Shown here one piece after another: positions 13,785 to 48,473 of a stretch of 48,490 nucleotides of DNA. The stretch is from Elusimicrobiota bacterium (GTDB lineage: Bacteria > Elusimicrobiota > Elusimicrobia > JACQJP01): contig JACQJP010000041.1 in the NCBI GenBank assembly GCA_016204975.1, forward strand, positions 1-48,490, in the 5' to 3' direction. The position numbers and the translations under genes were made by a program. Each line of letters opens with the position of its first letter. Within the stretch, counting starts at the first letter, position 1. The notes under the pieces were generated by a model. That model was not told the origin of the DNA and did not search any database. It saw only the letters and a program-made list of their open reading frames with translations.

Positions 13785-15915
13785 AAATCTTCACGCGAAC
13801 GGCCTGCCAGATCGGCTGGCCCGACTTGTCCGTCCGCCCAGCCAGGAGATCCGCAGGGTTCGCTCCGATCCCTTCAGAGTAGCGCCCCATGGCCGTATGC
13901 CCCAGGCCGAAGGGGAGGGACACGGTGTCTTCCCTGATGCCCTGGTAATGCCTCGCCCTCGCACGGATCTTTCCATAAGGGGATTCCACCCAGACCATTT
14001 GTCCATCCCTGATTCCCAATTTCTCCGCCGCGGCCGGATGCATCTCCACCCAGGTTTCCCACTGTTCTCCCAAGTGGGCCCCGGCAAGGCTGTGGAGGTA
14101 GGGGAGGTGGGCTCCTTCCCCGAAGGAAAAAGCCAGGGGAACGTGAATATAGAGATGGAAAGGATGGGAGGCGTCCGGGAGGTCGCGCCCTTTCGGTTTT
14201 AATTCGCCCGTCGGCAGAGCCAGCTTCCCTGTTTGCGTCTTGAGCGTGGATTTAACGCCTGAGCTCTCCCCCACGTATTCCCACCATCCCCCCTTCTTCA
14301 TGATCTCCTCAGCCCTGACTTTCTGGACCGCTTTCTCCAAAGACTCCACGAAACTCTCCCACGGAAGAGCCGAGGCAATCCTCCCCCCCAAAGACTTGGC
14401 CAGCCCCAAGATAAAGTCGCCATGGTCCCCTGTATCGTAGAGGGGGCTGACCACAGGAGGAGCAAAGCTGATGATGCCCTGTCCTTGGAGGGTCGGGGAA
14501 AAGCCGTATTGCCAGGCTTCCAGGGAATGGTGGGGCGGGAGGATGATATCCGCAATTTGAGAGGACTCGTCTATGAAGGGAGAAAAGCTAACGATGAACC
14601 CAATCCTCTCCAGGGCTTTTCTCCATTGGGCGCCTTGGGGACTCAAAAAAACCGGATTGACCCGCTCCATCCAGAGGAGCTCGATAGGACTTTGAGAGGA
14701 AGCGAGGATGCGCTCGGGGATTTCATGAAGAGATGCTATGGGAGCCGTCCTGGGTTTGGGAATAGCGGCAGAGGGCAGGGTCAATTGGTATCTTTCTGCC
14801 TCGCTGGAGAGAACTCCCCGCCTGACGCCTATGGATCCTACCAGGGCATTGAGGCTGTGTACCGCGATTTGGGTGAAAAGACTGCTTCGCTGAGTGATTC
14901 CAATGGCAGGTTTAATGGAGGTCATTTGCCTCGCAATTTCTACGATTTGTTTGGTCTTGACGCCTGAAATTTCGGATACTTTCTCAGGGGAATACTCCCG
15001 AAGAATCATCTTCCTGTATTCCTCGAATCCGGACGTCCATCGGCCCGCAAAGTTTTTGTCGTAAAGATTATCATCCATCAAAACATAGGCTACTCCCAAG
15101 GCCAGGAAGCCTTCCGTGTCCGGGCGGATGGAAATCCATTCATCCGCCTTGGCGGCCGTAGTGGAAAGTCTGGGTTCAATCTGGACGATCCGCACCCTCC
15201 TTTCCGGCCTTGCCCGGCGCAGTTCGCTGAAAGCCCTTTGAGCCTCCACGGGCGAAGGAAAGCTTTGAAGCCAATCCCATCCAAAGGACACGATGAGGCT
15301 TGCGTTCTGTAGGTCGTAGAATAACCCCTCCGAAGAGCCGTGCATCAGCCGGAAGGCGTCCAGGGGTCCCTCCGCCAAAGACCAGTTCCACTCCCAAAAA
15401 TTAGGAGTCCCGAACACCTGGGCGAAGCGCTTTTGGATCTTGTGACGGATATCTCTTATGGGAGCCGCCAGTATAGCCAGGGCTTCCGGTCTGTTGCGCT
15501 TTAAGAGATGAGAAAGTTTATCGAGGAGAATCTGATGGGCTTGGTCCCAAGATATTTTCTCCCACTGAGCGGACCCCTTGGTTCCCCTTTGCCTAATCGG
15601 CGAGCGCAGCCGGTCGGGGTGGTAGAGATCCTGGAGAATGGCCCCGCCCTTGGGACAGTGCGCTCCCTGACTCAAAGGATGGCCCGGCATTCCGGAAACT
15701 CCCACCGGCTTTCCGTTGACCACCCGGATCTGAAGCATGCACAGGGCCGGACAAAGCTTGCAGAGGGCCGGCCTATGGGCTTCGGAGTCCAGTCTGGGCA
15801 GAGGTTTTTCTTGGGGAGACAGCACCTTCGCCTTGATGGCTTTCGGTAGAGTGAAGCCCGCGACCAGAAAGCCGGCCCACTTGAGTAAATTTCTCCGTGA
15901 GATTTCTAGGTCCAT
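13774..15915 (-). CDS. Tat-exported molybdopterin-oxidoreductase-family large subunit
   Basis: This 713-residue protein has a twin-arginine signal (SRRNLLKWAGF) and an N-terminal [4Fe-4S] motif with Cys 52, 55, 59 and 87 (CKLCPALC ... HCPKG). It keeps MopB-fold landmarks such as ADIILPPHHSLE and a C-terminal domain with VWVESPYGKIRARA. In the region where catalytic relatives put the Cys or Sec metal ligand (after FGTPN), the sequence is FWEWNWSLAEG and contains no cysteine. It could use Ser, or lack molybdenum as in the ActB1 part of alternative complex III. With the ferredoxin and two NrfD genes downstream it forms the core of a membrane redox complex. Confidence 0.88.
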   Translation of the reverse strand: MDLEISRRNLLKWAGFLVAGFTLPKAIKAKVLSPQEKPLPRLDSEAHRPALCKLCPALCMLQIRVVNGKPVGVSGMPGHPLSQGAHCPKGGAILQDLYHPDRLRSPIRQRGTKGSAQWEKISWDQAHQILLDKLSHLLKRNRPEALAILAAPIRDIRHKIQKRFAQVFGTPNFWEWNWSLAEGPLDAFRLMHGSSEGLFYDLQNASLIVSFGWDWLQSFPSPVEAQRAFSELRRARPERRVRIVQIEPRLSTTAAKADEWISIRPDTEGFLALGVAYVLMDDNLYDKNFAGRWTSGFEEYRKMILREYSPEKVSEISGVKTKQIVEIARQMTSIKPAIGITQRSSLFTQIAVHSLNALVGSIGVRRGVLSSEAERYQLTLPSAAIPKPRTAPIASLHEIPERILASSQSPIELLWMERVNPVFLSPQGAQWRKALERIGFIVSFSPFIDESSQIADIILPPHHSLEAWQYGFSPTLQGQGIISFAPPVVSPLYDTGDHGDFILGLAKSLGGRIASALPWESFVESLEKAVQKVRAEEIMKKGGWWEYVGESSGVKSTLKTQTGKLALPTGELKPKGRDLPDASHPFHLYIHVPLAFSFGEGAHLPYLHSLAGAHLGEQWETWVEMHPAAAEKLGIRDGQMVWVESPYGKIRARARHYQGIREDTVSLPFGLGHTAMGRYSEGIGANPADLLAGRTDKSGQPIWQAVRVKIYGD

Positions 15916-15921
15916 ATTTTC

Positions 15922-16425
15922 CTATCGGTGGCACGCCATGCAGTCTGTTGTCACTCTCTCTTTTCTATGGCACTCCATGCACCTTTCCATCCGGAGAGGC
16001 ACAGGTTGTCTACCCAGGGGTCTCTCCATTTTTCCGACCTCGCCATGGCAAATTCTGCAGTCCAAGCCCCCTTTCTCCACGTGGCGCACATGGGAGAACC
16101 GAACATGTCGTGGAGCTTCGTAGATTTTCTTCCAGGGAATCGGCTTCATCTCCTGCATGTATTGCTCGAGGGCCTTCGGGGTTTTAGGGCTCGCCTTGCC
16201 GGGTTGGTGACACAGGGCGCAGGTGGAGATGTTGGGAACACTGGCCTTGGCGCTGTCTTTGGCTCCCACGTGACAAGCGTCACAGGCAATGCCAAACTCT
16301 ACATGCTTTTTGTGATTGAAAGGGACGGGCTGAGTGACCTCCCAGGTTTGGTAGATCCACAGCCCTGCTCCCATCAGCACAGCTCCTACAACCGCCCATC
16401 CCAGCCAGGCGTATATCCGTTCCAT
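15922..16425 (-). CDS. Membrane-anchored pentahaem c-type cytochrome
   Basis: This 167-residue protein has one N-terminal hydrophobic anchor (about residues 8-26) and five CxxCH motifs: CDACH, CALCH, CRICH, CMECH and CMACH. Histidine-rich stretches such as FNHKKHVEF and HVRFSHVRHVEKGG can supply distal ligands, as in class III/c7 cytochromes. A pentahaem cytochrome just ahead of a molybdopterin-family subunit, ferredoxin and two NrfD subunits corresponds to ActA of alternative complex III. It ends six bases before the molybdopterin gene. It probably takes electrons from the complex toward periplasmic carriers. Confidence 0.92.
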   Translation of the reverse strand: MERIYAWLGWAVVGAVLMGAGLWIYQTWEVTQPVPFNHKKHVEFGIACDACHVGAKDSAKASVPNISTCALCHQPGKASPKTPKALEQYMQEMKPIPWKKIYEAPRHVRFSHVRHVEKGGLDCRICHGEVGKMERPLGRQPVPLRMERCMECHRKERVTTDCMACHR

Positions 16426-16470
16426 AAGAGCTCAAGTCCTTCGACAGCTTTGCCTCGTCGGTCTCTCCGC

Positions 16471-17352
16471 TTACTTCTCCTCCTTTACGGGAATTCTTGG
16501 AGAAGAAAACTCCTTGGCCAGAGACGTCACTCCAGCCATGGCCCCGAGACCCATGGTCTCCACGGCGCTGGAGGGAACGATTACGACAGTGGAGTTCTGG
16601 CGCATCCCCTCCAGCAGGATATTCATCGCCCTTAAGTGCAGGGCCACGGGGTTTTCGACGTAGGCTTTGGCGGCTTCCTTGAATTTGCTGGCCACTTGAG
16701 ACTCCGATTCTCCCAGGATCAGGCGGGCCTGACGCTCTCTCTCCGCCTGGGCCTGCATGGACATCGCATTTTGAAGCGCCACGGGGATTTTCACGTCCCG
16801 AATTTCCACGGACAGGGCCTTGATGCCCCAGGCTTCGGTCCGCTCATCGATCATCTGGCAGAGCCTGGCGTCTATCTTCCTCCTTCCCACCAGCATCTCG
16901 GCAAGATCGGTCTCTCCGATCACGTCCCTGAGCGCCGTCTGAGACGACCAGGATGTCGCTTCCCGATAGTTCTCCACCTCCAGCGCCGCCTTCATCGGGT
17001 CTATCGTCCTCCAGAAAAGCACCGCGTCCACATCCACGGGCACGCTGTCTTTGGTGAGGGTTTGCTCCGCGGTGAATGGGGTGGTGATGACCCGCATGTC
17101 GATCCAGTACGGAACCGTGTCGAGGAATGGAAAGATCCCGAACAAACCCGGCCCCTTAAGGCCGTGGAACTTTCCCAGCCTGAGCACCACGGCCCTCTGC
17201 CACTGACGGGCCACTCTCAGGGCCAATACCATAAACAGCCCCAGCAGGACGCCGGCCAGCGCCATCAGAGGATTGGCCGACCGAAAACCGGTAGCCCCCC
17301 CAATGGCCGCTAGGGCCACAAACAGACTTAATGTCAACGGGTGAATACCCAT
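16471..17352 (-). CDS. SPFH/Band-7 (slipin-type) membrane protein
   Basis: This protein of about 293 residues has two hydrophobic helices at the N-terminus followed by a Band-7 domain (RAVVLRLGKFHGLKGPGLF, then FPFLDTVPYWIDMRV, then TKDSVPVDVDAVLFWRT) and a helical, Gln/Ala/Glu-rich region (MQAQAERERQARLILGESES). This is a typical slipin layout. Such proteins oligomerise and organise membrane microdomains or protect membrane complexes. AGGAGG is eight bases from ATG 17352 but only two from ATG 17358, so I chose 17352. It sits between cytochrome genes, so it may scaffold or stabilise the respiratory complex. No NfeD partner gene is visible nearby. Confidence 0.9.
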   Translation of the reverse strand: MGIHPLTLSLFVALAAIGGATGFRSANPLMALAGVLLGLFMVLALRVARQWQRAVVLRLGKFHGLKGPGLFGIFPFLDTVPYWIDMRVITTPFTAEQTLTKDSVPVDVDAVLFWRTIDPMKAALEVENYREATSWSSQTALRDVIGETDLAEMLVGRRKIDARLCQMIDERTEAWGIKALSVEIRDVKIPVALQNAMSMQAQAERERQARLILGESESQVASKFKEAAKAYVENPVALHLRAMNILLEGMRQNSTVVIVPSSAVETMGLGAMAGVTSLAKEFSSPRIPVKEEK

Positions 17353-17380
17353 GTTCATTACCTCCTGATCTCTCTCGTGG

Positions 17381-17896
17381 TTATTCTTCTTCCTCCTCCC
17401 TGCTTCCCGGAGGGGATTTTAGACTAAAAAGATATTGAGCCAGGTCCTCCAACTCTCCTCCGGAAAGCGTCTTCTCCCAGGAAGGCATATCCAAGGGAGG
17501 CTCCTGGTCTTTTTCCTCCAGTTTGGCGGGGTGAGTCCCCTTGCGGATTTTGTCCTTTAAATCGTTGAAGGTGAAAGCATCCCCAAGGTCATAGAGGTTG
17601 GGGACCACGCCGTCCGGATCGGCGTTTGGATTTTTGACCCCTCCCTCCCCCTCGGGCCCGTGGCAGACGCCGCAGCGAAACTCCCTGTAGAGGAGGCGTC
17701 CCTTCAGGATGGGAGAATCTTCATCTAAAGATCGAGACTTCTCGGCGAGGGCAGCGAAAACTTTTTCGGTGGGGGAGATGGCCCAGAGAGGGCTCCAGAG
17801 CCTGGCTCTATAAGCGAGAAACCCGTAGAAGAGGAAAAGACCCGCCCATACGGAAAGGACAAGTACGACCAAGTTGAGCGACCCTCGATCCTTCAT
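17381..17896 (-). CDS. Membrane-anchored class I monohaem cytochrome c
   Basis: This 171-residue protein has an N-terminal transmembrane anchor (LNLVVLVLSVWAGLFLFYGF), one haem motif, CGVCH, followed by GPEGEGG, and a likely methionine ligand in DMPSW. The C-terminus (LEDLAQYLFSLKS) is the closing helix of a class I cytochrome c. It resembles the ActE subunit of alternative complex III or a cytochrome c oxidase-associated cytochrome. It lies six bases after the upstream cytochrome gene, so co-translation is likely. Confidence 0.88.
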   Translation of the reverse strand: MKDRGSLNLVVLVLSVWAGLFLFYGFLAYRARLWSPLWAISPTEKVFAALAEKSRSLDEDSPILKGRLLYREFRCGVCHGPEGEGGVKNPNADPDGVVPNLYDLGDAFTFNDLKDKIRKGTHPAKLEEKDQEPPLDMPSWEKTLSGGELEDLAQYLFSLKSPPGSREEEEE

Positions 17897-17901
17897 TTTA
17901 T

Positions 17902-18393
17902 CTAGTCGCCTTTTGGTTTTTGAATCTCTTTTTCCTTGACTCTCTCTTGTTTCTGAACCCCCTTCTTCTCTTGTAGTTTCTTTTCAATCAAATTCTTTTT
18001 TCGAATAGAAGAATCGTAGATCAGGAAATCAACGATCTTTCCGGCGCTTGTAGCGTCCAAACCCGAGCGCTTCTTCTTCCGCATTTTCTCGATGTAGGGC
18101 GCCCACTCCTCCGGCAGCGCGTAGGGAGAGTTTATGGCCCTGGCCAGGGTGTGGCACTTGGAGCATTTTTTGGCGAAGACCTTGTAGTTCTGCTGCTGCT
18201 TCTCGGGATATCCGGAGACATCGATTTCCTCGGGACCATCGTCCCAGGGAAACTCCTCTTTCGAGGCCGCCTTATCCCGCGTCGTCGACTCCGCGGCGCC
18301 GCCGGGCTCCCGGGGCACCGCGCAGAAAATCGCCGATGCCGCGAATGCGGCGAAAAAACCCAGCACGAACCGCTTGCACTTGCTCTTTTCCAT
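17902..18393 (-). CDS. Monohaem c-type cytochrome, paralogue of the gene at 9783-10304
   Basis: This 163-residue exported protein has a hydrophobic signal segment (FVLGFFAAFAASAIF), one haem motif, CSKCH, and the flanks IDVSGYP and TLARAINSPY that it shares with the cytochrome at 9783-10304. The tail from about residue 130 is extremely rich in Lys, Glu and Gln and is probably a charged helix. A 203-base gap upstream separates it from the haem-porin gene, an unusually long space in this operon, so it may have its own promoter. I see no clear -35/-10 pair there. It is probably a periplasmic electron shuttle for the complex. Confidence 0.85.
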   Translation of the reverse strand: MEKSKCKRFVLGFFAAFAASAIFCAVPREPGGAAESTTRDKAASKEEFPWDDGPEEIDVSGYPEKQQQNYKVFAKKCSKCHTLARAINSPYALPEEWAPYIEKMRKKKRSGLDATSAGKIVDFLIYDSSIRKKNLIEKKLQEKKGVQKQERVKEKEIQKPKGD

Positions 18394-18596
18394 AGCACCT
18401 CCGGGCCGTCAAGAATGTCCGACGATTACTGAGCAAAACTTGAGACCGGCCCCCCCGGGGGAGGCTTCGTCCAAACGGCGGGCTCGGGATGCAGAAAGGA
18501 GGTTAGCGGGACCGAGGAAGCTCGAGAAGGCCCCGCGACTTTCGCACCACACCGGTCTTTTTTCAACGAACATTGTCCAACCCGCTGCTGAGATAC

Positions 18597-19838
18597 TCAG
18601 AACCCTACTTCCACCTGAAGAGTCCAGCGATGGTCCTTGGGGGCTCCTTCCCTTTTAGTGTTCGCGAAGTACTCCACAAACGCCCGGCCGTTCTCCGCAA
18701 AGTAATGCGAGAGCTGGCCCGTGAAGTTGCCGAACTGTTTGGTTCCATCCGTCGTTTGAAACCAATCCTGTCGGATCAAGGGCACCAGGAAAGGCCGGTC
18801 GTCCTTGTTCACGGCGTAAAAGGCCTCGGTGTAAGCCCCTCGATTGGCCTCCCTGGCTTGCGTGACGGTATTCTTGTCGTAGAAATACGCGAAGGCTCCC
18901 CTGGCCGTCACTCCGAAGAGTTCCACCAAGGCGTCCAACCCGGCGCGGGAAAACTTCTTTTTACCCGCCGCCGGAAGCCCCTCGTGTCCCGCGCTGGCAA
19001 AGCCTCCCACCGCAACGCCTCTGAGAGAATCAAAAGCCAGCCGGATGACGCCGTCTTTGGGCCCCTCCCCCTCGGCGTCCCCCTTGTCGGAGGACAGGCC
19101 GGCCGCGTAATAGAGCGATCCCACGTTCTCTCTGCCGATCTCCCCATATGCGGCTACGGTTTGCTTTTCCCCGTCCAAGCTGTCGCCCGAGAGATATCCC
19201 TGCATGGCAAAGTCTCTCGACGAGCGGGTCAACTTCCCCATATTGGAGAGAGTCTGGAAGGGATCCATCATAAAGAAGGATCTGTTGGCGAGCAGGAGAT
19301 TCAGATACCGGGAGGGATGGTAACCGACCTGCAACTCTCCCAATTCCGGGCTGAAGCCCATTTCATCTTCCGCTTCCACCTCCGTAAAGTAAGACACGTG
19401 TTTGGAGGCGTCCCCTCCGGCAACGAAGAGCTCCAACTCGTGAAGGGCGCGGAGCTTGAATTCCCTGTCGCTTTGTTTTTTGTCGTAGGGCCTAGACTTC
19501 ACCATGGCTCCCCAGGGAAATATCTTTTCCGTCCAGAGGGACCCATCCTTGGCCTCCAGAACCCCTTCCTTGCTTCCTCTTTCACGCACGTATCCGTTCA
19601 GTTTGAACTCCCTCCCGTAATCGTTAAGCGCCGGGAAGGCGGTATGGCATTGGGAACAACTGATGCCGTACTTTCTGGCAAAAGCCGGCACCGCCTGCAC
19701 GTCCCCTACGGAGCTTGGCCGCACGGGGCACAGCCTCATCGTCTTGTGAAGCAGCGGAGGCACGATCCATATGCCTAGAAATACGCCGAGCATGAAAACT
19801 CCCGTGCCTAACCAACGCTTCCATTTTTCATTTCTCAT
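18597..19838 (-). CDS. Haem c domain fused to an outer-membrane beta-barrel (porin-cytochrome)
   Basis: This 413-residue protein has an N-terminal membrane or signal segment (LGTGVFMLGVFLGIWIVPPL) and a haem motif CSQCH at 61-65, followed by TAFPALNDYGREFKLNGY. The rest is built of alternating short polar and aromatic strands. It ends in an aromatic residue (LQVEVGF), the usual C-terminal signature of an outer-membrane barrel. A ribosome site (AGGAGG region) lies just before ATG 19838. Proteins of this layout occur in iron- and nitrogen-cycling bacteria, but their role is not settled. I infer that it carries electrons into or across the outer membrane. The N-terminus could be an uncleaved anchor rather than a signal peptide. 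Confidence 0.8.
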   Translation of the reverse strand: MRNEKWKRWLGTGVFMLGVFLGIWIVPPLLHKTMRLCPVRPSSVGDVQAVPAFARKYGISCSQCHTAFPALNDYGREFKLNGYVRERGSKEGVLEAKDGSLWTEKIFPWGAMVKSRPYDKKQSDREFKLRALHELELFVAGGDASKHVSYFTEVEAEDEMGFSPELGELQVGYHPSRYLNLLLANRSFFMMDPFQTLSNMGKLTRSSRDFAMQGYLSGDSLDGEKQTVAAYGEIGRENVGSLYYAAGLSSDKGDAEGEGPKDGVIRLAFDSLRGVAVGGFASAGHEGLPAAGKKKFSRAGLDALVELFGVTARGAFAYFYDKNTVTQAREANRGAYTEAFYAVNKDDRPFLVPLIRQDWFQTTDGTKQFGNFTGQLSHYFAENGRAFVEYFANTKREGAPKDHRWTLQVEVGF

Positions 19839-35446: not shown

Positions 35447-36631
35447 ATGGTGCATCCCAGGATCGCCCAGGCCAGGCTTGAGTCTCTCCTGAAGCAGTTC
35501 CCGATCGTGACCCTTTTAGGCTTGCGTCAAGTTGGGAAATCGACATTCGCTCGTTGGGCCCTGCCCGGTTTCGACGCGTTCGATCTCGAAAACCCAGCCA
35601 CGCTGCTGCGCCTGGAAAGCGACGGGCAGCTCGTCTTAGAGCAATCAAAGAGGATCATCATCGATGAGGCGCAGCGCCTGCCGGCCCTCTTCCCTCTTCT
35701 GCGCAGCCACATCGACAGCCATCCAAGTCACAAGATCGTCCTTCTGGGCTCCGCTTCACCGAGACTCGTCAAGAAGATCTCGGAGTCTCTGGCCGGACGA
35801 ACCGGATTTCTGGAGTTGGGGGGCATGTCGATTCTGGAAGCCGACCCCGATCCATTGTGGATCAAGGGCGCATTTCCCCGGCTCCATTGGAGCCGGCCGC
35901 GGGCCTCCCCCGAAGATTGGCTTCCGGCGTTCCTGCGGACCTACCTGGAGCAGGACATTCCCCAGCTCGGGTTTCGGGTTTCCTCCTTGAAGATGATGCG
36001 GTTGCTTTCGATGCTGGCCCACTCCCAGGGCTCGATCAGCGACTTGAGCCAGCTTGGAGGCTCCCTTGGAATCGACTACCACTCCGTTTCCCATATCTTG
36101 GACATTTTCGAAGGAACCTTCCTGGCAAGAAGGCTCGCGCCCTATTTCGCCAACCTGGGCAAGAGGCTGGTCTAGAGCCCCAAGCTCTATATCCGCGTCA
36201 CGGGAATCCTGCACCACCTCCTCGGCATTCCATTCAAGAAAAAGGCGCTGCTTTCCCATCCAAAGGTGGGGGCAAGCTTTGAGACATTCTGCATCGAGCA
36301 GATCATCAATATCGCCCGCCTCGAGGACCCCGCTGCCGAGGTGTTTTTCTTTAGGACTCAGGCCGGAGTCGAGATAGACCTGCTGCTTAAATTCCGAGGC
36401 GAGTTGATTCCCATCGAGATCAAGCTCAGCCTCGCGGCCCAGAGCATCCAAAGCCTTGAGCGTGGGATGGGTTACTTGGGTCTCAAGCGCGGATTCATCG
36501 TCCACATGAACGAGGGCTTCACTGAGGTTAGGCGAGGCATCTGGGCCGGTTCGCTGGCCCGTGTCGTCTCTCATCTCTTTCGGACCCGCGCTATCGACGA
36601 CTTGCAAGAACAGAAGCGGAGGCTTCGCTAG
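35447..36631 (+). pseudogene. AAA ATPase with DUF4143 domain interrupted by one in-frame TAG
   Basis: The gene encodes a 394-codon protein of the AAA_14/DUF4143 family. Walker A is GLRQVGKS (25-32), Walker B is RIIIDEAQRLP and the sensor strand is KIVLLGSASPRL. The C-terminal DUF4143 nuclease-like part has AGVEIDLLLKF and IPIEIKLS. Codon 243 is TAG (36173-36175), in the stretch KRLV-stop-SPKLYIR. Family members usually read KSPKLY there, so a single AAG-to-TAG change would explain it. Both sides remain intact and in frame, which implies a recent mutation or readthrough. Such proteins often belong to mobile or defence gene sets. Confidence 0.85.
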
Positions 36632-38806: not shown

Positions 38807-40915
38807 GTGAAGCTTTTTTATAAACTTTTCTGGATCATCCTCTCCCTGGCTATCCTGCCGCTCGTTCTGATAGCCGTCTGGCTCCATCACTACCAGGACA
38901 TCGCAAAAAGCAACGCGCTGCAACTGCACAGCCAACTGACCGACAACGTGGCTTCTGCAATCGAGCAGCATTTCAGCCACTTGAACAAACGATTGGCCTT
39001 TGTCCGGGACCTGGAACGGGCCTCCTCCATTGGAGACGTGGAAATTCTGAAGGTGATTCAAACCACCCTCAATGCCAACTCCGATTTTCTCCTTATTTGT
39101 TACCTGGAGGCAGAGGGGAGGGAGAGGATCAAACTGGGAGATCAAAAGTTCTTCCCGGAAGCGGGGTTGACCTCTCGCGCTTCGGAACCCATCGTGCAGC
39201 AGGTCAAGAAGGAAAAAAGGCCCCATATGAGCGCCTTGGAATCCAGAGAAGGGATCCCCCTGGTGCGAATCGTCTATCCGTTAAAAAACGGCGACCTGGC
39301 ATACCTGGCAGTCAGCCTCCAGGAACTTTGGAAAAGAGTCTCCACGCAAAAACCGGGAGCCTCGGGCCGGTTCGTGCTCATGGACCCGGAGGGACAGCTT
39401 CTTCCTATTTTCGCCCAGGACTTTCCAGGGTGGGAGCCTGCCCAGATACTAAAACTTCTGCGCTCTCCCTCGGGCACCTTCGAGAGTCTGGTGCAAGGGG
39501 ATAAGAATTGGGCCGGCGCCTTCCGGACGCTGCCTTCCCCCCCTTGGGTTGCAATGACCCTGCAACCCCAAGAGGAAGCCTTCCTGGCCAGCCGCAAGCT
39601 CACCGCAGGACTTCTCTTCTGGATCAGCTTGGTGGCCCTGACCGCTTTAGGGGTCTCCTTCCTGATTGCCCAAAAGATCACGCGTCCGATCTCGAGCCTC
39701 CATCAAGCGGCATTTCGCATTGCGGAAAATAACTATGCACAACCTGTCTCGGAGGAAGGCTGGAGGGAATTTCGGTTCCTCTCCCGAAGTTTCAATGAGA
39801 TGATGCGGCAACTAAAAACCTACTCCGAGCTTCAGGTGGACCGGCTGATCGAAGAAAAAACCAAGGTGGAAACCCTCATCTATACCATCCCGGAAGGAAT
39901 CATCATGACCACGGTGAAGGGCGAGGTACTCTACATCAATGCCCCAGCCATGAATATGCTGGGCATTCGTCATAAGGAGGGCACCCAGCTCAAGGGCAAG
40001 GTCCAGGAGTTGACCAAAAACGAGGACCTACGCCAGAGCTTGCAACGCATCTTTAGTCGCCGAGCAAAGACCGAAGAGTTGGAACTCCAATTTGCGGATC
40101 CTTACGGAAGACGCATGAAGTACTTCAAAACAACCGCCACCCTGGTCTCCACCCCCGCGGCTCAGGAGGTGGCGGTGGTGCTGGTGATGCGTGACATCAC
40201 CGCAGAAAAAGAAATTGACCGCATGAAAGAGGAGTTTTTCCAATCCATCACTCACGATCTGCGGGCCCCGCTTTTTGCCATTCAAGGATATGTCCGGCTC
40301 CTGCAAAAATCCTTGAGTCCCGGGGCTAAAGAAAAAGTCTATTTTCAATCCATTTACCGCTCTTGTGAAAAACTCACCCTGCTGATACAGGACATACTCG
40401 ACTTGGCAAGATTGGAGGCGGGGAGGGTCAAGCCCAGCCCGACCAATATAGAGCCTGTGCCGTTTTTAGAAAAAATCGTGGAGCTCTTCTCATCTATCGC
40501 TCAGGAAAAAGAGATCCAACTGCAACTACAACTTCCCTCGCAAGATTCCGGGGTCCTGCAAGCAGACGAGCGACTCCTGGAACGGGTCTTCAGCAACCTG
40601 ATCAGCAATGCCTTGAAGTTCACGCCCGCCAAAGGATTGGTCCGCGTCCACCTGCTCGAGGCCACCCTCGAGAACCTCCGCTTCGCGGTGGAGGATTCCG
40701 GGCCGGGCATTCCAAAGGACCAGCTGCAATCCGTATTCGAAAAATTCAAGCAGCTGGACGTCACACACCAAAAAACCGGATTTGGCCTGGGTTTGACCAT
40801 ATGCAAACGAATCATGGAACTTCACCATGGAAGAATCTGGGTGGAGTCAGAGCTGGGCCACGGAAGCCGTTTTATTTTCGAGCTTCCCAGAAAACAAACG
40901 GTTCTGGTGGAATAA
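38807..40915 (+). CDS. Large hybrid-free sensor histidine kinase (sensor-HAMP-PAS-HisKA-HATPase)
   Basis: The 702-residue protein starts at GTG 38807. It has one helix at residues 7-26, a periplasmic sensor domain (about 30-265), a second helix near 268-289, a HAMP linker (ITRPISSLHQAAFRIAENNY), a coiled segment and a PAS domain (VETLIYTIPEGIIMTT onward). A HisKA domain with His483 (SITHDLRAPLFAIQG) follows, then an HATPase with N, G1 (DSGPGIP) and G2 (GFGLGLTI) boxes. It has no receiver of its own. The PhoB-type regulator at 44006 is a plausible partner, separated by the motor operon on the other strand. The gene converges with motB nine bases away. Confidence 0.93.
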   Translation: MKLFYKLFWIILSLAILPLVLIAVWLHHYQDIAKSNALQLHSQLTDNVASAIEQHFSHLNKRLAFVRDLERASSIGDVEILKVIQTTLNANSDFLLICYLEAEGRERIKLGDQKFFPEAGLTSRASEPIVQQVKKEKRPHMSALESREGIPLVRIVYPLKNGDLAYLAVSLQELWKRVSTQKPGASGRFVLMDPEGQLLPIFAQDFPGWEPAQILKLLRSPSGTFESLVQGDKNWAGAFRTLPSPPWVAMTLQPQEEAFLASRKLTAGLLFWISLVALTALGVSFLIAQKITRPISSLHQAAFRIAENNYAQPVSEEGWREFRFLSRSFNEMMRQLKTYSELQVDRLIEEKTKVETLIYTIPEGIIMTTVKGEVLYINAPAMNMLGIRHKEGTQLKGKVQELTKNEDLRQSLQRIFSRRAKTEELELQFADPYGRRMKYFKTTATLVSTPAAQEVAVVLVMRDITAEKEIDRMKEEFFQSITHDLRAPLFAIQGYVRLLQKSLSPGAKEKVYFQSIYRSCEKLTLLIQDILDLARLEAGRVKPSPTNIEPVPFLEKIVELFSSIAQEKEIQLQLQLPSQDSGVLQADERLLERVFSNLISNALKFTPAKGLVRVHLLEATLENLRFAVEDSGPGIPKDQLQSVFEKFKQLDVTHQKTGFGLGLTICKRIMELHHGRIWVESELGHGSRFIFELPRKQTVLVE

Positions 40916-40924
40916 GAGGAGGCC

Positions 40925-41557
40925 TCAGGCCTTCTGGCGCAGAATATTGATCTCAATCCTACGATTCTTTGCCCGCCCTTCCGGAGTATCGTTGCGAACA
41001 GCCGGCATATGCTCGCCATAGCCCAGCGCGGAGAGCCGCGCCGGCGGAATCCCCTGAAGAATAAAAAACCGCAACACGCTGAAGGCCCGCGCTGCGGAAA
41101 GCTCCCAGTTGGAAGGATACCGCGACCCGAAGGCCATGGGCAGATCATCGGTATGTCCTTCGATCTGAACCGCATTGGGAATCGCCTGAACGACCCCTGA
41201 CAGCTTTTTTAAATGCGGAATGGAAGTGGCCTTCAGATCCGCGCTGCCCACACCAAACAGGACCGGCTCCAAAAAAGTGATGCGCATCCGGTTCTCATCC
41301 ACATCCACATTGGCAATCTTTTGAATTCCATGCTGCGAGAAAATGACCTGCATGTCCGCCACATCTTCCTTGCCAAATTCCTGCTCCACGCTGTGCATGC
41401 TGAACTGCATCCGAAGGCTTCGGGAAGCCGTAAATACAAAGAGAATCAGGAAAAAGATCATAAGGTAGCTCATGAGGTCTCCGTAGACCACGGCCCATAA
41501 AGCCCCCCGATTGAGCTGACTCTCCAGATCTTCTTCCCTGTCCTGGTAAAGAGCCAT
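40925..41557 (-). CDS. motB: MotB-type stator protein with OmpA-like peptidoglycan-binding domain
   Basis: This 210-residue protein has one transmembrane helix (about 21-44) preceded by WAVVYGDLMSYLMIF. Its Asp27 is in the place of the essential proton-binding Asp of MotB. The C-terminal OmpA-like domain has VQIEGHTDDLPMAFGSRYPS, then ELSAARAFSVLRFF and NRRIEINI, which bind peptidoglycan. The ATG abuts the motA stop. With MotA it forms an ion-driven stator. It is shorter than typical MotB (about 260-310 residues), with a reduced linker. Confidence 0.9.
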   Translation of the reverse strand: MALYQDREEDLESQLNRGALWAVVYGDLMSYLMIFFLILFVFTASRSLRMQFSMHSVEQEFGKEDVADMQVIFSQHGIQKIANVDVDENRMRITFLEPVLFGVGSADLKATSIPHLKKLSGVVQAIPNAVQIEGHTDDLPMAFGSRYPSNWELSAARAFSVLRFFILQGIPPARLSALGYGEHMPAVRNDTPEGRAKNRRIEINILRQKA

Positions 41558-42352
41558 CTATGCGCCTCCGGCCTGCGGCGCCGCCGCAGGAACCTGGAGA
41601 GTTTGCCGCTTCTCACTCGCATAGGAGCTCAGATGCAGTTCCACCAAATAAGGGGGTTTGGATTCCAAAATATCCAGAACCCCCTCCACAATGACCTCCA
41701 GGATCAGCCCCTCCTGCATGGCGCGCAGGCGAATCTTGCCGGCCACGGGAACGCAGATGAGGTTGGCAATCGCAATCCCATAGAATGCGGTGGTGATCGC
41801 CAACGCCATCGCCCCTCCGACCCGTGTAGGCTCGGACATGCTGCGCAGGACCTCGACGATGCCCAGCAAGGTTCCCAGCAAGCCGAACATGGGAGCCAAA
41901 ACCCCCATCGTCCGGAAGAGATTGGCATCCTCCTGCGTCTGGAGACGCCGATGGCGAAGCTCTCCCTCCAGAATCCTGCGGGTTTCCTTGGCCTCCCCGG
42001 AGGTGATGGCCACGTTGAGCGCCCGCGACAGAAATCCGTTCATAAATGTTTGACCCTCGTTCTGAAGAGCCAAGAGCCCCTCCGCCCGTGACCTTTCGGC
42101 CAAACGAACCATCTCCACCACCGTTTCCTCCACGGAAGGCAGTTGTGAGGAAAGGAAGATCGAAAAAAACCTCCTCAGCCCGGACCAGAGCACGCGAAAG
42201 GGGGTATTGACCAGCGTAGCGCACAGCGTCCCCCCAAACACCAGAGCCAGACCATGGGCATTCACAAAAAGGGTACCCCCCCCCGCCTGCTGCACACCCC
42301 AGGCCAGCAGAAGCACGCCGGCAAGAAATCCGAACCAAGTAGCCAGATCCAT
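41558..42352 (-). CDS. motA: MotA/PomA-type stator channel protein
   Basis: This 264-residue protein has four membrane segments. The signature GVLAPMFGLLGTLLGIVEVL contains the conserved proline of MotA helix 3, and the second conserved proline lies in NLICVPVAGKIRL. The N-terminal helix and the IFLSSQLPS loop also fit the MotA/PomA group rather than ExbB/TolQ. It follows the FliF/FliG-like gene by 11 bases and abuts motB, so the three genes form an operon. It conducts ions with MotB and would push on a FliG-like C-terminal domain. Confidence 0.92.
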   Translation of the reverse strand: MDLATWFGFLAGVLLLAWGVQQAGGGTLFVNAHGLALVFGGTLCATLVNTPFRVLWSGLRRFFSIFLSSQLPSVEETVVEMVRLAERSRAEGLLALQNEGQTFMNGFLSRALNVAITSGEAKETRRILEGELRHRRLQTQEDANLFRTMGVLAPMFGLLGTLLGIVEVLRSMSEPTRVGGAMALAITTAFYGIAIANLICVPVAGKIRLRAMQEGLILEVIVEGVLDILESKPPYLVELHLSSYASEKRQTLQVPAAAPQAGGA

Positions 42353-42363
42353 TTAGGTGAAGG

Positions 42364-43875
42364 CTAAGCGGCCGGCAGGGTGAAGCGACCCTCCTTCTCC
42401 AGAGCCCTTGCCACCTGCAAGAATTGTTTCCTCACCCGATCCTGTTGCGCGGCAGCCGGAAGCGGCGCATTCATCTCATCACGCACCACCCGGCTTAAGC
42501 CCTCCGGCAGAATTTCCAGCGCTTTTTTCTGCAGATCTTTCGACAAGATTCTAAAAAATATCCCCAGGGCAACCCGCTGACGGTAGGCTTCCCACAACAC
42601 CACCTGCAGGACGGTGGGCTCCAGTTGAAAAATTTTTTCTATGGTCAACATGCGCCGTTCAATCTCCTGCACCACCTCCGGCCGATCCCCCCGAAGCTCC
42701 TCCAAAAGGACCTGCTGCTGCTCCATGCTTTGCTCATCCATAATCTGCAAGAGTTGTTCGGCGCCCCCGACAATGTAATCCACCTGAGCCTTCAGCCGCT
42801 CATGCAGGGCCCGAATCGCGTTGGGATTTAAGGGTTTAGGAGAGGAGAGCATGAGCATGATCTGGCGCTGCCTGTCCGTGTCCAGTTGAGCGAGAAACTG
42901 CGAGGAAAGCTCCGGGGTTAGGTACGCCACAACCGCCGCCATCGCCTGCACATTATTCTCCTGCTTCAAAACCATCAAGACCTTGTTCAAGTTCTGCGCA
43001 TGGATAAAGCCAAACGGCTTCCCATCCGCCTCCCCCTCCGGTTCTCCTCCCGGCAGGAGTCCACGTGGCGAAGCTCCCACCCCAATCTCCCGCTCCGCCT
43101 GAGCATTCAAGACGGGCATCTCCGGACGGTTGATCGAAACGGCAGAACGAGTTAAAAACTGCCCTTCCCCACGAATGCTGAGTGTTTCCATGGACCGGGC
43201 GATATGATTCAGGAAACGCCGCACAGGACCGAAAAGAAAAAGAGTCAAAACCGCCAGTCCCAAAATTCCAAAAACCAGGGGATTGAGATGATCCTTCCAG
43301 TAAAAAAAGGCCTCGATCGGATCCTGTCGAAAGTTGACGTTCTCCACCAAAAACTCATCCCCGCGATCAGGCAGCAACCCCACTAAGGGGGGAAGAATGC
43401 GCCGTAGGTCCGCGATGCGCTGGGATTCCAATCCTTGAGGCAACAGGAGCCGAATACGAATCTGCTTGATGATATTGGAGGGAATCTTTAGAGTTTGCGC
43501 CACCTGCTCGACAATGGGCGAGGCGGCATCGCCTTTTTGAGGCTTCAAAGAACTGGGGAGAAACTCCTGGGCAAACCCAGGCAGCTCCACCGAACCCCGC
43601 TCCACCTCCCGCCGAGTCGTTGGAGAACGCACATTTCTCGTTTCCTGGGACAGTTCCAGATCCGTCACAATGTCCACCCAAACGATAAAGTCGTTACTCC
43701 CCAAAATCTTCTCTGTCACCTCACTCACATTCTCCTTCACGACCTTTTCCAAAGCAATCCGTTCTTCAATGCCAAAGCCGGGAGCCGAAAGAGCGGCTCG
43801 CCCATCGCTCCATCCCAGAGGAACAAGAAGCAGAAGCGCCATCCTAAAACTGCATAAATTAAATGATTTTAGCAC
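42364..43875 (-). CDS. Membrane-anchored FliF-like/FliG-like fusion protein (rotor homologue)
   Basis: The start is GTG 43875, with AGGAGG six bases upstream. The 503-residue protein has a signal peptide (about 1-31) and an extracytoplasmic part like the C-terminal region of FliF (ILGSNDFIVWVDIVTDLELS, and LKIPSNIIKQIRIRLLLPQG). One membrane helix follows (about 199-217), and then a cytoplasmic part like FliG. Residues 290-345 resemble FliG middle repeats (AMAAVVAYLTPELSSQFLAQ). Residues 430-500 resemble the FliG C-terminal torque helix domain (FFRILSKDLQKKALEILPEG, then QFLQVARALEKEGRF). Ordinary FliF and FliG are separate proteins. It precedes motA and motB and is driven by a consensus promoter. 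Confidence 0.82.
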   Translation of the reverse strand: MLKSFNLCSFRMALLLLVPLGWSDGRAALSAPGFGIEERIALEKVVKENVSEVTEKILGSNDFIVWVDIVTDLELSQETRNVRSPTTRREVERGSVELPGFAQEFLPSSLKPQKGDAASPIVEQVAQTLKIPSNIIKQIRIRLLLPQGLESQRIADLRRILPPLVGLLPDRGDEFLVENVNFRQDPIEAFFYWKDHLNPLVFGILGLAVLTLFLFGPVRRFLNHIARSMETLSIRGEGQFLTRSAVSINRPEMPVLNAQAEREIGVGASPRGLLPGGEPEGEADGKPFGFIHAQNLNKVLMVLKQENNVQAMAAVVAYLTPELSSQFLAQLDTDRQRQIMLMLSSPKPLNPNAIRALHERLKAQVDYIVGGAEQLLQIMDEQSMEQQQVLLEELRGDRPEVVQEIERRMLTIEKIFQLEPTVLQVVLWEAYRQRVALGIFFRILSKDLQKKALEILPEGLSRVVRDEMNAPLPAAAQQDRVRKQFLQVARALEKEGRFTLPAA

Positions 43876-43906
43876 CAAATCCTCCTGAAGCCCACGAACC
43901 GCTATA

Positions 43907-43935
43907 ATACTACCCCCAGTCCGGAAGAATGTCAA
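43907..43935 (-). promoter_or_regulatory. Consensus sigma-70 promoter of the FliF/FliG-like motA motB operon
   Basis: On the minus strand TTGACA (43930-43935) and TAGTAT (43907-43912) are separated by 17 bases. The start would be near 43900, leaving about 25 bases of leader with AGGAGG before GTG 43875. This is one of the best housekeeping promoters in the window and differs from flagellar sigma-28 or sigma-54 promoters. Confidence 0.75.
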
Positions 43936-44005: not shown

Positions 44006-44698
44006 ATGCCGACCAAGATTCTGATCGTGGATGATGACCGCGCCATTCTCAAGACCCTCAAGCGCTACCTGGAGGACCGCTCCTTAACGGCTATTACGAC
44101 CGACAACGGTTCCGAGGCGCTGCTGTTGGCCAAAGAATCCAAGCCGGACTTGATACTAACCGATGCGGAGATGCCGGGCCTCGAAGGGTATGCCTTGTGT
44201 CGCGTACTGCGCAAACAACAGACGACCCAAACCATCCCCATCGTCATCATGTCTGGAAAAATGATCCAGGAAAAAGACGTCCTGGCCGGTTTCGATGGGG
44301 GCGCGGATGACTACATCACCAAACCCTTCTCTTACCCGGTACTCCTGGCCAGAATCCATGCGGTCTTAAAACGCTACCAAACCGCCGATCGAATGAGTGA
44401 AAAGCTAAAAAGACAGGGGCTGGAACTGGATCCCGCCTCTCGAACCGTGACCATCCGCAAAAAACCGGTTTCTCTCACCCGCAAAGAGTTTGACCTCTTA
44501 GCCACCCTCCTGAGCAAGCCCGGACGAGTCTTGGGCACCTCCTACCTCCTCGAAACGGTCTGGGGGTACGATCCCGCCGACTACAATGATCCGGGCACGG
44601 TCGAGGTCCACATCTCCCATCTGCGCAAAAAATTGGGTCCCAAGTTCGGCAAACAGATCGTTGCGGTCACCGGGCATGGCTACAAACTCAACGTCTGA
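44006..44698 (+). CDS. OmpR/PhoB-type response regulator
   Basis: This 230-residue protein has an N-terminal receiver with acidic pair at 10-11, phosphoacceptor Asp53 (ILTDAEMPG) and the conserved Lys in YITKPF. A C-terminal winged helix follows (SLTRKEFDLLATLLSKPGRV, then TVEVHISHLRKKLGPK and VTGHGYKL), as in PhoB and OmpR. Three 11-bp phased repeats lie immediately downstream in the promoter of the FlgO-like gene, so that gene and its neighbour are likely targets. The cognate kinase is not adjacent; the kinase at 38807 is the nearest candidate. Confidence 0.94.
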   Translation: MPTKILIVDDDRAILKTLKRYLEDRSLTAITTDNGSEALLLAKESKPDLILTDAEMPGLEGYALCRVLRKQQTTQTIPIVIMSGKMIQEKDVLAGFDGGADDYITKPFSYPVLLARIHAVLKRYQTADRMSEKLKRQGLELDPASRTVTIRKKPVSLTRKEFDLLATLLSKPGRVLGTSYLLETVWGYDPADYNDPGTVEVHISHLRKKLGPKFGKQIVAVTGHGYKLNV

Positions 44699-44776: not shown

Positions 44777-45652
44777 ATGCGAAAACAACTCCTGCTTCCA
44801 CTTCTCCTGCTGCTGGCCTCCGAGCTCTCGGCATCCGAAAACAGCTATAGAAGGATGGCCGGCGAGTTTTCCAAAGCTGCCGACAGGCACCGGATCAAAA
44901 GGATCGCCGTTCTCCCCTTCATCGCAGACGGGGAGCTTTCCCAAGAGGGAAGAAACGTCACGCAAGCTCTGACCACGCAACTGGCCCGGTTGGGGAAGGT
45001 CGAGGTGGTAGAAAGGGAGATGCTCGACCAACTGCTTCAAGAACAGCGCTTGATGTATGCCGGAGTGACCCAGAGCCCTCAAAGTCCCCAGGACTCACAT
45101 TCCTTGGAAGCCGCAGAGGCCATCCTGACCGGCTCGGTGGTCAGAACGCAAGAGCTCCTGAAAGTCTATGCTCGTTTAATTGAGCTGAAAACGGGAAAGC
45201 TGCTGGCCGCCGCCGACAGCCAGTCGGAATATGACTGGACCCAAGGCTTTGACCGCTCCTGGGGCCACCAGACTGCGGTTCCGGCTCTAGAGGTCGCCCC
45301 ACCATCCCTGGAGAGTTTTTCTCCTTCCGCCCTTCGTGACGCCCTCGCCGACATCCGATGCTCACAACTTGAAGAGACCCTCAGCCGCTTCCACGTCTCC
45401 ATCCTTGACCTCAAGGCCAGATACTGGGCGGCCAAAATGAAAGAACCTGATTTTTCTTATTCCAGCCTCACCCACAATCCGGGCTCCGAGATCCCCAACC
45501 GGGAAATCCGGATGCAGTTCTACGATCTTTTAAAATCCTGGTACTACCAGCCGCAGGTTCCGCGACTCACCCCCACAGAAACAAAGGCTCTATGGGACGC
45601 AGAAAGAGGGATGGAAAACCTGCGGCAGACCTGCGGGGAAGGAGGGGCCTAG
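44777..45652 (+). CDS. FlgO/CsgG-like outer-membrane-associated protein
   Basis: The 291-residue exported protein has a signal peptide (QLLLPLLLLLASELSAS) and a domain of the FlgO/CsgG type: KRIAVLPFIADGELSQEG, then EVVEREMLDQLLQEQR, then ILTGSVVRTQELLKVYARLI and LKTGKLLAAADSQ. FlgO is linked with flagellar motility in Vibrio, and CsgG relatives form or help outer-membrane channels. There is no lipobox cysteine. The C-terminal 120 residues are helical and not part of the domain. It abuts the GGDEF gene (TAG then ATG). Its nearness to the motor genes suggests an envelope part of the same apparatus. Confidence 0.75.
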   Translation: MRKQLLLPLLLLLASELSASENSYRRMAGEFSKAADRHRIKRIAVLPFIADGELSQEGRNVTQALTTQLARLGKVEVVEREMLDQLLQEQRLMYAGVTQSPQSPQDSHSLEAAEAILTGSVVRTQELLKVYARLIELKTGKLLAAADSQSEYDWTQGFDRSWGHQTAVPALEVAPPSLESFSPSALRDALADIRCSQLEETLSRFHVSILDLKARYWAAKMKEPDFSYSSLTHNPGSEIPNREIRMQFYDLLKSWYYQPQVPRLTPTETKALWDAERGMENLRQTCGEGGA

Positions 45653-46597
45653 ATGCCGAAAAAGATTCTCATTGCGGACGATGAAAGAAGTATCCATCGT
45701 CTCATACAACGCACTCTGCAAGATGCCTCTTATGATCTAGTCAGCGCCTACGATGGTCTGCAAGCAATTCAGCTGGCCACGGAGGAAAAACCGGACCTCA
45801 TTCTCCTGGATATTCACATGCCTCGCATGAGCGGAGGAGAGGTGATCCAAGCCCTTCACAAAGATATTCAGCTCCAGATGATTCCCGTCATCCTCATCAG
45901 CGTAGATGCAACCCCCATGGACAAATGCCTGGGGTTTGAATCAGGGGCGGATGACTATATCGCCAAGCCCTTCGAAATTCTGGAGCTGCGGGCGCGCATT
46001 AAAAGTATGTTAAACCGAACCCAAAGAAAACTCTTCGCCAACCCTTTGACCCTCCTGCCCGGCAATCCCTCCATTGAGGAGGAGGTCAACCACAGACTTC
46101 GGGAAAACATCCCCTTCGCCTTTCTCTATTCAGACATCGATCACTTCAAGGCCTATAACGATGCCTACGGTTACCTGGCGGGAGATCAGGTGATTAAAAA
46201 GACCTCAGAACTACTGATGGAAATCCTGAAAAACTCAAACGAGCCCGATGACTTCCTGGGGCACATCGGAGGGGATGATTTTGTGCTGCTGACAGATCCC
46301 GGTTCCTCAGAGAGAACGGCCCGGCAGATCGCCCAAACATTTGATCAACAATCTCCTTCTTTCTATCGTCCCGCAGACCAAATGAGAGGGTGTATTTCCA
46401 CTTTCGATCGCCTAGGCCAAAAAAGAGAAATTCCACTGATGACTCTTTCCATGGCCATCGTAGACAGCCAACGCAGAAAACTCGGCCACTACGCTCAATG
46501 GGTAGATGTGGCCACGCAAGTCAAGCGGCATTTGAAATCCAGAGAGACCTTCGAAAGAAGCGTGTACATGCAGGACCGCAGAAGGGACCATTCCTGA
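45653..46597 (+). CDS. Receiver-GGDEF response regulator with a GGDDF motif
   Basis: This 314-residue protein has a receiver with Asp53 (ILLDIHMPR) and Lys in YIAKPFEI, then a GGDEF-type domain. The domain keeps DIDHFKAYNDAYGYLAGDQ, but the active loop at 206-210 is GGDDF, with Asp in place of the fourth-position Glu. The Arg of the inhibitory I-site RxxD is absent. Activity is thus uncertain: it may be a weak cyclase or a receptor. The start codon directly follows the stop of the FlgO-like gene, so the pair is co-expressed under the PhoB-type box. Confidence 0.9.
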   Translation: MPKKILIADDERSIHRLIQRTLQDASYDLVSAYDGLQAIQLATEEKPDLILLDIHMPRMSGGEVIQALHKDIQLQMIPVILISVDATPMDKCLGFESGADDYIAKPFEILELRARIKSMLNRTQRKLFANPLTLLPGNPSIEEEVNHRLRENIPFAFLYSDIDHFKAYNDAYGYLAGDQVIKKTSELLMEILKNSNEPDDFLGHIGGDDFVLLTDPGSSERTARQIAQTFDQQSPSFYRPADQMRGCISTFDRLGQKREIPLMTLSMAIVDSQRRKLGHYAQWVDVATQVKRHLKSRETFERSVYMQDRRRDHS

Positions 46598-46818: not shown

Positions 46819-47436
46819 TTACGCCCATAGACGATTTTCTTTAAGCCATCTCCTCAATGGAAGATAATTAAACCTCTTCGCATATTTCCCCAGCTTACGG
46901 ATGTCCAATTCCCAATTCTTGCCCCGCTTACGAGGCAATTCCAAAGGAGAGCGCGGTGTCAAGGCCAGATAGGCCAAATCTAAAAATGCTTTCTCCGGCT
47001 CCGCCATAAGATAGCTTCCCTGCCCCGACTTCCTCGTCTCATACCCCCAGATCAGACGTTCCGGCAGATGATGGATATGAAACTCTCCTACAGAGGTTTT
47101 GTACCTCTTGGGCAAAGCGGCCGATATCCCGTAAACGATCTGGGGTACTTCCTCAACGATGCCGTAGTCCGCCAAGGCACTATGGAGAGATACATAGGTC
47201 GTCCAAGGCAGTCTTAAATAGGAAACGACCTCATAGGAGTTGAAGTCTGAGACAAGCCTGTTCGCCCACAGGCCGCGCTTGATCCGCGAAAGCAAGCCCC
47301 TGACAGCCATGCGTTCTAGAGCGTGCGTAGCCGCCCAAGGACTCATCCCCGTCAACGTAATTAAATCCGTCGTAGAAATAACCCTCAACTTGTGTTTTTG
47401 AAGCAATTCCACCAATTCGGCGGCGGAGGTGCTCAT
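46819..47436 (-). CDS. AbiEi-type antitoxin
   Basis: This 205-residue protein has an N-terminal winged helix (LQKHKLRVISTTDLITLTGM, then ALERMAVRGLLSRIKRGLWA) and a C-terminal AbiEi-type domain (YVSLHSALADYGIVEEVPQ, then AEPEKAFLDLAYLA). AbiEi proteins repress their own operon and neutralise AbiEii nucleotidyltransferases in type IV toxin-antitoxin systems. Its start overlaps the toxin stop by four bases, so it is encoded second here, whereas many operons have the antitoxin first. The last 40 residues are basic. Confidence 0.88.
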   Translation of the reverse strand: MSTSAAELVELLQKHKLRVISTTDLITLTGMSPWAATHALERMAVRGLLSRIKRGLWANRLVSDFNSYEVVSYLRLPWTTYVSLHSALADYGIVEEVPQIVYGISAALPKRYKTSVGEFHIHHLPERLIWGYETRKSGQGSYLMAEPEKAFLDLAYLALTPRSPLELPRKRGKNWELDIRKLGKYAKRFNYLPLRRWLKENRLWA

Positions 47437-48200
47437 CGGACAATCCCCAAGAGATCCTCTTCCACTTCTGCTTTAAGTTTCTCAAACATTCGAGGATCTC
47501 TATAAATATCCATTAGGTTGCCTGAAAGATAGGGCGACACCTGCTCCTTAAAATCCTGGTGGGTAAACCTTGAGGCTTTCTTTGCCGCCTGCTCCAGCTC
47601 CGATTGTTTCACTCTATCCCTCAAATGATCCGGCTTAACCAAGAGTGTTCGAAGCAGATGGCGCAGATCAAACAAATCCCGCACCGCATAGCGGGAGGAA
47701 GATGCCAAAGCGGATATCTTTTGCGCCGACATGGAAATCGCATCGTAGAATTGAACCGCAAAGGGGGGCATTTTATATCGGCCCAACAGCTCCGCATCGG
47801 GAATGCCCGTAGTGTAGGCAACCTTTTCGTTCCGCCGGCTGAACGCAATCTTGGTGGGCAACGAATCGCCCCCCTCAAGATAAAGAGAGACTTTCCACCG
47901 CTGGGTTGTCTCCGTCTGCTTGGGCTGCCTGAATGAAATCCGGCCGACCCCTTGGGAAGTCAAGGAGGCAACAAAAGCCCTGCTCTCCAGAATGGAATTC
48001 ACCCCTTTCTTGAGCGTCGCCATCCTAACCTTGCTCACAATATCCAAATCCACGTCTTGAGACAACCGCGCGGAACGGTGGAAAAAACGCAGGCAGATAC
48101 CCCCCTTCACCGCATAGGCTCTCCCAGAGAGCCGGAGACTCAGGTGGCGGAGAAAAACCAGATGGAAAAACTCCCTAAGCTCGAAGGAACGGAGTGGCAT
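47433..48200 (-). CDS. AbiEii-type nucleotidyltransferase toxin
   Basis: The 255-residue protein belongs to the AbiEii/MenT nucleotidyltransferase group: FFHLVFLRHLSLRLSGRAY, then KGGICLRFF and the catalytic RLSQDVDLDIV, with a later YDAISMSAQKISAL. These toxins add nucleotides to tRNA or other targets. I chose ATG 48200, because a strong promoter overlaps the longer candidates at 48233 and 48224, and homologues begin close to this point. It is followed by the AbiEi gene with a 4-base overlap. Confidence 0.87.
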   Translation of the reverse strand: MPLRSFELREFFHLVFLRHLSLRLSGRAYAVKGGICLRFFHRSARLSQDVDLDIVSKVRMATLKKGVNSILESRAFVASLTSQGVGRISFRQPKQTETTQRWKVSLYLEGGDSLPTKIAFSRRNEKVAYTTGIPDAELLGRYKMPPFAVQFYDAISMSAQKISALASSSRYAVRDLFDLRHLLRTLLVKPDHLRDRVKQSELEQAAKKASRFTHQDFKEQVSPYLSGNLMDIYRDPRMFEKLKAEVEEDLLGIVR

Positions 48201-48212
48201 ATCCTGATCCTT

Positions 48213-48242
48213 ATTATAATACATAATTGCCATATTTGTCAA
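48213..48242 (-). promoter_or_regulatory. Consensus sigma-70 promoter of the AbiEii/AbiEi operon
   Basis: On the minus strand TTGACA (48237-48242) and TATAAT (48213-48218) are perfect hexamers with an 18-base spacer. The start would be near 48206, only six bases before ATG 48200, so the leader is almost absent. The 200 bases to the right hold no gene I can support. Confidence 0.75.
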
Positions 48243-48473
48243 TTTCTTAATATTTAATAAATAGTGCCGGAGAGAGAGAACCTCTTTGCAAATGCGGGAG
48301 AGCACACCTCGTCTCTGTAATTGACAAGGGGGCTTCCCCCAGGCTGGCCCCGGCAAAAACTTCACAAAGAATTCGCAAGGAATTCGTGAAATTTTCAAAA
48401 AGGTATGTTATCCTACCTCCTGTTTCCCGAACGCGTTGGCTAGGCGCGACATAGTTTACGAGGAGGGACCACA

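Follow-up and report, generated by a model that had tools for sequence, protein, structure and literature searches.

The RBM1 and RBM2 domains of FliF hold the export gate of the bacterial flagellar motor. In the E. coli version of this motor, residue R281 of FliG contacts residue E98 of MotA. The protein FlbD/SwrD is associated with the torque or power of the flagellar motor. Covalent joining of FliF and FliG has been described before. A natural FliF–FliG fusion occurs in Chlamydia, in which RBM2 is kept, RBM3 is absent, and FliG is represented by FliG_M only (Bergeron 2016, PMC4768692). In addition, engineered FliF–FliG fusions in Salmonella, as cited in that paper, still assemble and turn (Francis 1992; Thomas 2001), although these are laboratory fusions that operate within a complete flagellum.

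We analyzed a stretch of 48,490 nucleotides from an Elusimicrobiota bacterium (contig JACQJP010000041.1 of assembly GCA_016204975.1), hereafter called the window. A sequence-only reading of this DNA had placed MotA and MotB genes after a gene for a FliF/FliG-like fusion. All three genes are present in this arrangement on the minus strand, with Pfam matches above cut-offs. The locus and its neighbors comprise the following features:

38807 to 40915, plus strand: sensor histidine kinase (dCache, HAMP, PAS, HisKA, and HATPase), convergent with the operon; assigned by Pfam and by synteny with the nearest relative, G274
40925 to 41557, minus strand: MotB, 210 amino acids, a transmembrane segment with the ion-binding Asp followed by an OmpA peptidoglycan-binding domain; assigned by Pfam, with the D32 equivalent present
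41558 to 42352, minus strand: MotA of the flagellar (PomA/MotC-like) type, 264 amino acids; assigned by Pfam, NCBIfam, and conserved residues
42364 to 43875, minus strand: FliF(RBM3)–TM–FliG(M+C) fusion; assigned by Pfam, PDB profile search, AlphaFold model, Foldseek, and start-site analysis
43907 to 43935, minus strand: candidate sigma-70-type promoter, TTGACA-17-TAGTAT, identified by consensus match
44006 to 44698, plus strand: OmpR-family response regulator, divergent from the operon; assigned by Pfam, a neighbor whose link to the operon is uncertain

The locus resembles the bacterial flagellar motor in having a FliF RBM3–TM segment, the M and C domains of FliG, and a flagellar-type stator, and fuller loci of the family also have the gene order FlbD–MotA–MotB. 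It differs from this motor in having FliF and FliG as one protein, in lacking RBM1/2, FliG_N, FliM, FliN, and an export gate, and in carrying Gly at the position of R281. As in Chlamydia, the fusion is natural and occurs in a bacterium without flagella. However, the Elusimicrobiota protein keeps RBM3 and both FliG_M and FliG_C, and MotAB follow directly (PMC4768692).

The fusion is 503 amino acids long, and its parts occur in the order signal peptide, RBM3, single transmembrane helix, FliG_M, and FliG_C. This composition confirms the signal peptide, FliF-like part, membrane helix, and FliG-like domain that had been read from the letters, with two refinements: RBM3 is the only FliF ring domain present (RBM1/2 are lacking), and the Pfam score for FliG_N is under the cut-off. 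Matches to FliG_C (1.1e-10) and FliG_M (7.5e-9) both exceed curated cut-offs. A family profile built from 18 members was searched against the PDB. Its match to FliG crystal structures (4.8e-64) is confined to the M and C domains, and its matches to FliF MS-ring structures (5.5e-7 and 1.2e-4) span the region before and through the transmembrane helix. An AlphaFold model of the monomer has confident FliG and RBM3 parts separated by disordered linkers, and a low pTM of 0.39. With this model, Foldseek recovers FliG (5.8e-7) and, separately, the FliF RBM3/collar (probability 1.00); the expected resemblance to FliG-C is therefore seen.

The likely start codon is GTG 43875, which is preceded by AGGAGG and yields the 503-amino-acid protein with its signal peptide MLKSFNLCSFRMALLLLVPLGWSDGRAALSA. 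TTG 43935, previously taken as the start, lies where the −35 box begins and cannot serve as the initiation codon. The promoter itself is present, as had been claimed, and matches 10 of 12 consensus positions. The assignment is based on this consensus match, and sites of the TTGACA-17-TAGTAT type occur three times in the region versus 1.2 expected.

MotA matches Pfam MotA_ExbB at 5.6e-21, above the curated cut-off, and NCBIfam PomA at 8.2e-46, yet under the cut-off of that model. For MotB, the matches to OmpA (5.2e-20) and MotB_plug (7.4e-8) are both above curated cut-offs. Among sampled loci, MotA P173 and P222 are conserved in 17 of 17, the position of R90 is K or R in the same 17, and D32 is retained in the first MotB. 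In the FliG part of the fusions, the position of K264 is K or R in 30 of 33, most residues at 288/289 are acidic or Gln, and the Gly-Gly linker is invariant. In contrast, R281 is replaced by Gly in 28 of 33 fusions, MotA E98 is replaced by Gln in 12 of 17, and the EHPQ motif is degraded. Judging from these residues, half of the classical FliG–MotA interface (the R281–E98 contact) has been lost, with the two residues perhaps having changed jointly.

The source genome is assembled as 1.5 Mb in 55 contigs and is 86.9% complete, and the nearest named relatives are from Elusimicrobiota. Neither FlhA (export gate), FliM/FliN (switch), nor YscJ_FliF (PF01514, FliF RBM1/2) was found in this genome. 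These results agree with the sequence-only reading, which had noted a lack of switch and export genes in the operon, and a search for a flagellar cluster elsewhere in the genome revealed none by the three markers. The genome does carry a second FliG, as part of a TPR-tailed fusion in a locus of the type termed B below:

14607 to 19199 of locus L003 (contig C12): second motor locus, with TPR-tailed FliG fusion, coiled-coil protein (proline-rich N-terminus), FlbD/SwrD, MotA, and MotB

This locus ends inside the fusion, at the contig end, and its FlbD match is 1e-25. A different motor-like pair is located on contig C33 (L102, 2703 to 6580), where a 1020-amino-acid protein with a MotB-like part adjoins another MotA/ExbB gene.

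To count the fusion family, 295 Elusimicrobiota genomes were searched at E ≤ 0.001; some matches cover the FliG part only, and nearly all are in open frames of 480–700 amino acids. The family is present in 120 of these genomes, representing 59 genera, often as two to five copies per genome, and it includes several paralogous subfamilies. FlhA was found in three of the 295 genomes, and the identical three carry FliM/N and YscJ_FliF above cut-off. Two of them are without the fusion. In G215, the third, flagellar fliF, fliG, and motAB are present as separate genes, and a complete fusion locus lies on a different contig; the two systems (L105 and L106) offer a natural comparison within one genome. 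A flagellar cluster without its own fliF and fliG would speak against the sequence-only reading, and G215, the sole genome with both systems, keeps the two genes separate. A FliG tree groups the flagellar proteins, that of G215 among them, in a clade with support of 97 that is separate from the fusions.

The fusion family is under purifying selection. Values of dN/dS are 0.07–0.15 in close pairs, and the window compared with its nearest relative gives 0.19 with dS near-saturated. Together with the intact frames and the paralogs found in many genomes, the values for close pairs argue for function. A scan of a genome collection with a close-set family alignment gave nothing convincing outside Elusimicrobiota. 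The outside match was one short Thermodesulfovibrio contig from a sampling series (SKYB) shared with an Endomicrobia match, and it is probably mis-binned.

Most members of the family reside in loci larger than that of the window, and therefore the description "minimal operon" suits the window subtype and not the majority of its relatives. Type A loci encode a giant surface protein, a PorV-like barrel with TPRs, the fusion, MotA, MotB, and a second MotB. In six of 10 sampled pairs (L042, L043, L047, L048, L049, L052), the ion-binding Asp of this second MotB is replaced by Asn or Ser, and it is possible that the paired MotBs form a heterodimeric stator. Type B loci encode a giant protein, the barrel, a TPR-tailed fusion, a coiled-coil protein, FlbD/SwrD, MotA, and MotB. 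FlbD/SwrD is found in 102 of 120 fusion carriers versus three of 175 other genomes (Fisher p = 8e-56, ignoring shared ancestry), and in 49 of 49 loci chosen for a shared contig it lies downstream of the fusion on the same strand.

The PorV-like barrel is encoded directly upstream of the fusion in at least 65 of 87 top matches, with the strand always shared. This protein passes the NCBIfam PorV cut-off and is modeled as a 14-stranded barrel plus TPR helices. Among PDB entries, this model matches a chain from a type IX secretion system (T9SS) complex best, followed by FadL-type barrels. The giant proteins carry C-terminal matches to FlgD_ig / T9SS-type C-terminal domains (CTDs), with scores at or just below cut-off. 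Proteins resembling SprA_N (SprA/Sov translocon) are present in 27 of 112 genomes as weak to moderate matches, with none in the source genome. GldM was matched in 0 of 112 genomes by a search in which control genomes gave no match either. Most loci of the family resemble T9SS secretion or gliding with GldLM, in that an ion-driven motor is located beside a PorV-family barrel and CTD-type surface proteins, whereas rotor and stator in Elusimicrobiota are of the flagellar type. The window operon does not have this arrangement, and no gene for an outer-membrane partner adjoins it.

We consider it likely that the fusion and its stator form an ion-driven rotor–stator machine other than the flagellum. 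The proposal made earlier, of a rotary or force-transducing machine distinct from a normal flagellum, is supported by the lack of a three-marker cluster, by the FliG-C-like model, and by the separate fliF and fliG of G215. We infer ring formation and ring number, rotation and its direction, and an output at the outer membrane. Copies of the fusion would build an inner-membrane ring, with RBM3 forming a periplasmic ring, one transmembrane helix per subunit, and FliG M/C in the cytoplasm. MotA5MotB2 units would be held to peptidoglycan via the OmpA domain of MotB, and ion flow through them would push FliG_C such that the fusion ring is turned or strained. Force would then exit via the periplasmic RBM3 ring. 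Since FliG is covalently joined to the FliF part, FliG_N and the FliF tail would be dispensable. Without an export gate, rod, hook, and filament could not be exported, and without either the gate or FliM/FliN, nothing would be threaded through the ring and direction would not be switched in the flagellar way.

Because none of the tested flagellum-building or switching parts is present, and because the motor of relatives is encoded beside outer-membrane secretion-type proteins, the machine probably drives an envelope component rather than a swimming propeller. For most subfamilies, the likely receiver would be the adjacent PorV-like barrel with its periplasmic TPRs, along with the CTD-bearing giant surface proteins. 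The outer membrane is probably where the motor acts in most fusion families, and the gene neighbors in types A and B suggest that the output might be the powering of T9SS-like secretion or the movement of surface adhesins (gliding).

Several other explanations could account for the existence of these genes. MotAB belong to the 5:2 motor family, whose other members act on periplasmic partners (PMC9389320), and the stator might work like ExbBD/TolQR or GldLM, with the fusion serving as a tether, either static or flexing, through which force reaches the periplasm without rotation. Such a transducer would fit the loss of R281 and of the FliM-binding motif, but we judge it unlikely because the fusions retain FliG_C and K264 along with mostly acidic residues at 288/289 and an invariant Gly-Gly linker, MotA is of the flagellar type, and FlbD/SwrD travels with the fusion. 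A Zorya-like anti-phage system was brought to attention by the window MotB, which matches PADLOC ZorB models at 6e-27. However, the fusion and two tested MotAs match no PADLOC model, ZorA was not found, and Zorya is not known to have a FliG or FliF component. This candidate was rejected, with a negligible chance of being correct, since the ZorB match reflects generic MotB homology.

The genes might also be a functionless leftover of the rotor and stator of a lost flagellum. Stepwise loss is common for flagellar genes, and such remnants are covered by a 2025 survey (PMC12199754); moreover, FlhA is retained in only three of the 295 genomes of the phylum. This reading is disfavored, and we regard it as very improbable, because the fusion and MotAB are intact with dN/dS of 0.07–0.15, because the fusion is spread over 59 genera, with 120 carrier genomes that often have two to five copies, and because it has become tied to new partners (FlbD, PorV-like barrel). 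Alternatively, the remaining genes of a true flagellum could be hidden in the missing 13% of the source genome, which the 86.9% completeness and 55 contigs of the assembly might permit. We give this scenario almost no credence: among the 190 genomes with a completeness of 90% or more, 93 carry the fusion and only three carry FlhA, and the fusion lacks RBM1/2, the part of FliF that would hold the export gate.

The preferred rotor–stator machine is a variant of ion-driven rotor–stator motors, and every one of its parts has known relatives, but the assembly taken as a whole has a fair chance of being a new kind. More tentatively, and with somewhat greater doubt than belief, we suggest that Elusimicrobiota possess an envelope machine of a new class. 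This class would combine a gate-less rotary motor of the flagellar type with T9SS-like outer-membrane parts and take the role of GldLM in moving or secreting giant surface proteins, and the window copy would be a stripped-down subtype with a different output. No account of the fusion system was found in the searchable open literature, a coverage that leaves out preprints and most subscription papers, and the available portions of two 2025 surveys, of MotAB (PMC12505986) and of flagellar loss (PMC12199754), do not describe it. A flagellar rotor–stator pair that is widespread, selected, and multi-copy without a flagellum offers a concrete, testable case that bears on how separable the motor and export parts of flagella are in evolution. 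It may also be an additional route by which ion flow is coupled to outer-membrane secretion or gliding.

The window subtype consists of the fusion, MotA, and MotB plus the convergent histidine kinase, all of which are kept in G274 (identities of 42%, 58%, 57%, and 39%, respectively). The two form a clade with support of 100 in the FliG tree. An equivalent kinase gene at the equivalent place in G274 makes it likely that the kinase is tied to the motor operon, and it may couple this motor to sensing. The divergent OmpR-family response regulator was not found in the G274 locus (compared with L039). Adjoining this regulator, at 44777–46597, are genes for a CsgG/FlgO-like protein (CsgG 7.5e-12, FlgO 2.5e-6) and then a response regulator with GGDEF. 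Farther out, a gene pair at 46819–48398 is AbiEi/AbiEii toxin–antitoxin-like by eye, and two adjacent frames at 35447–36631 look by eye like the split parts of a single DUF4143-type ATPase and may be a broken gene.
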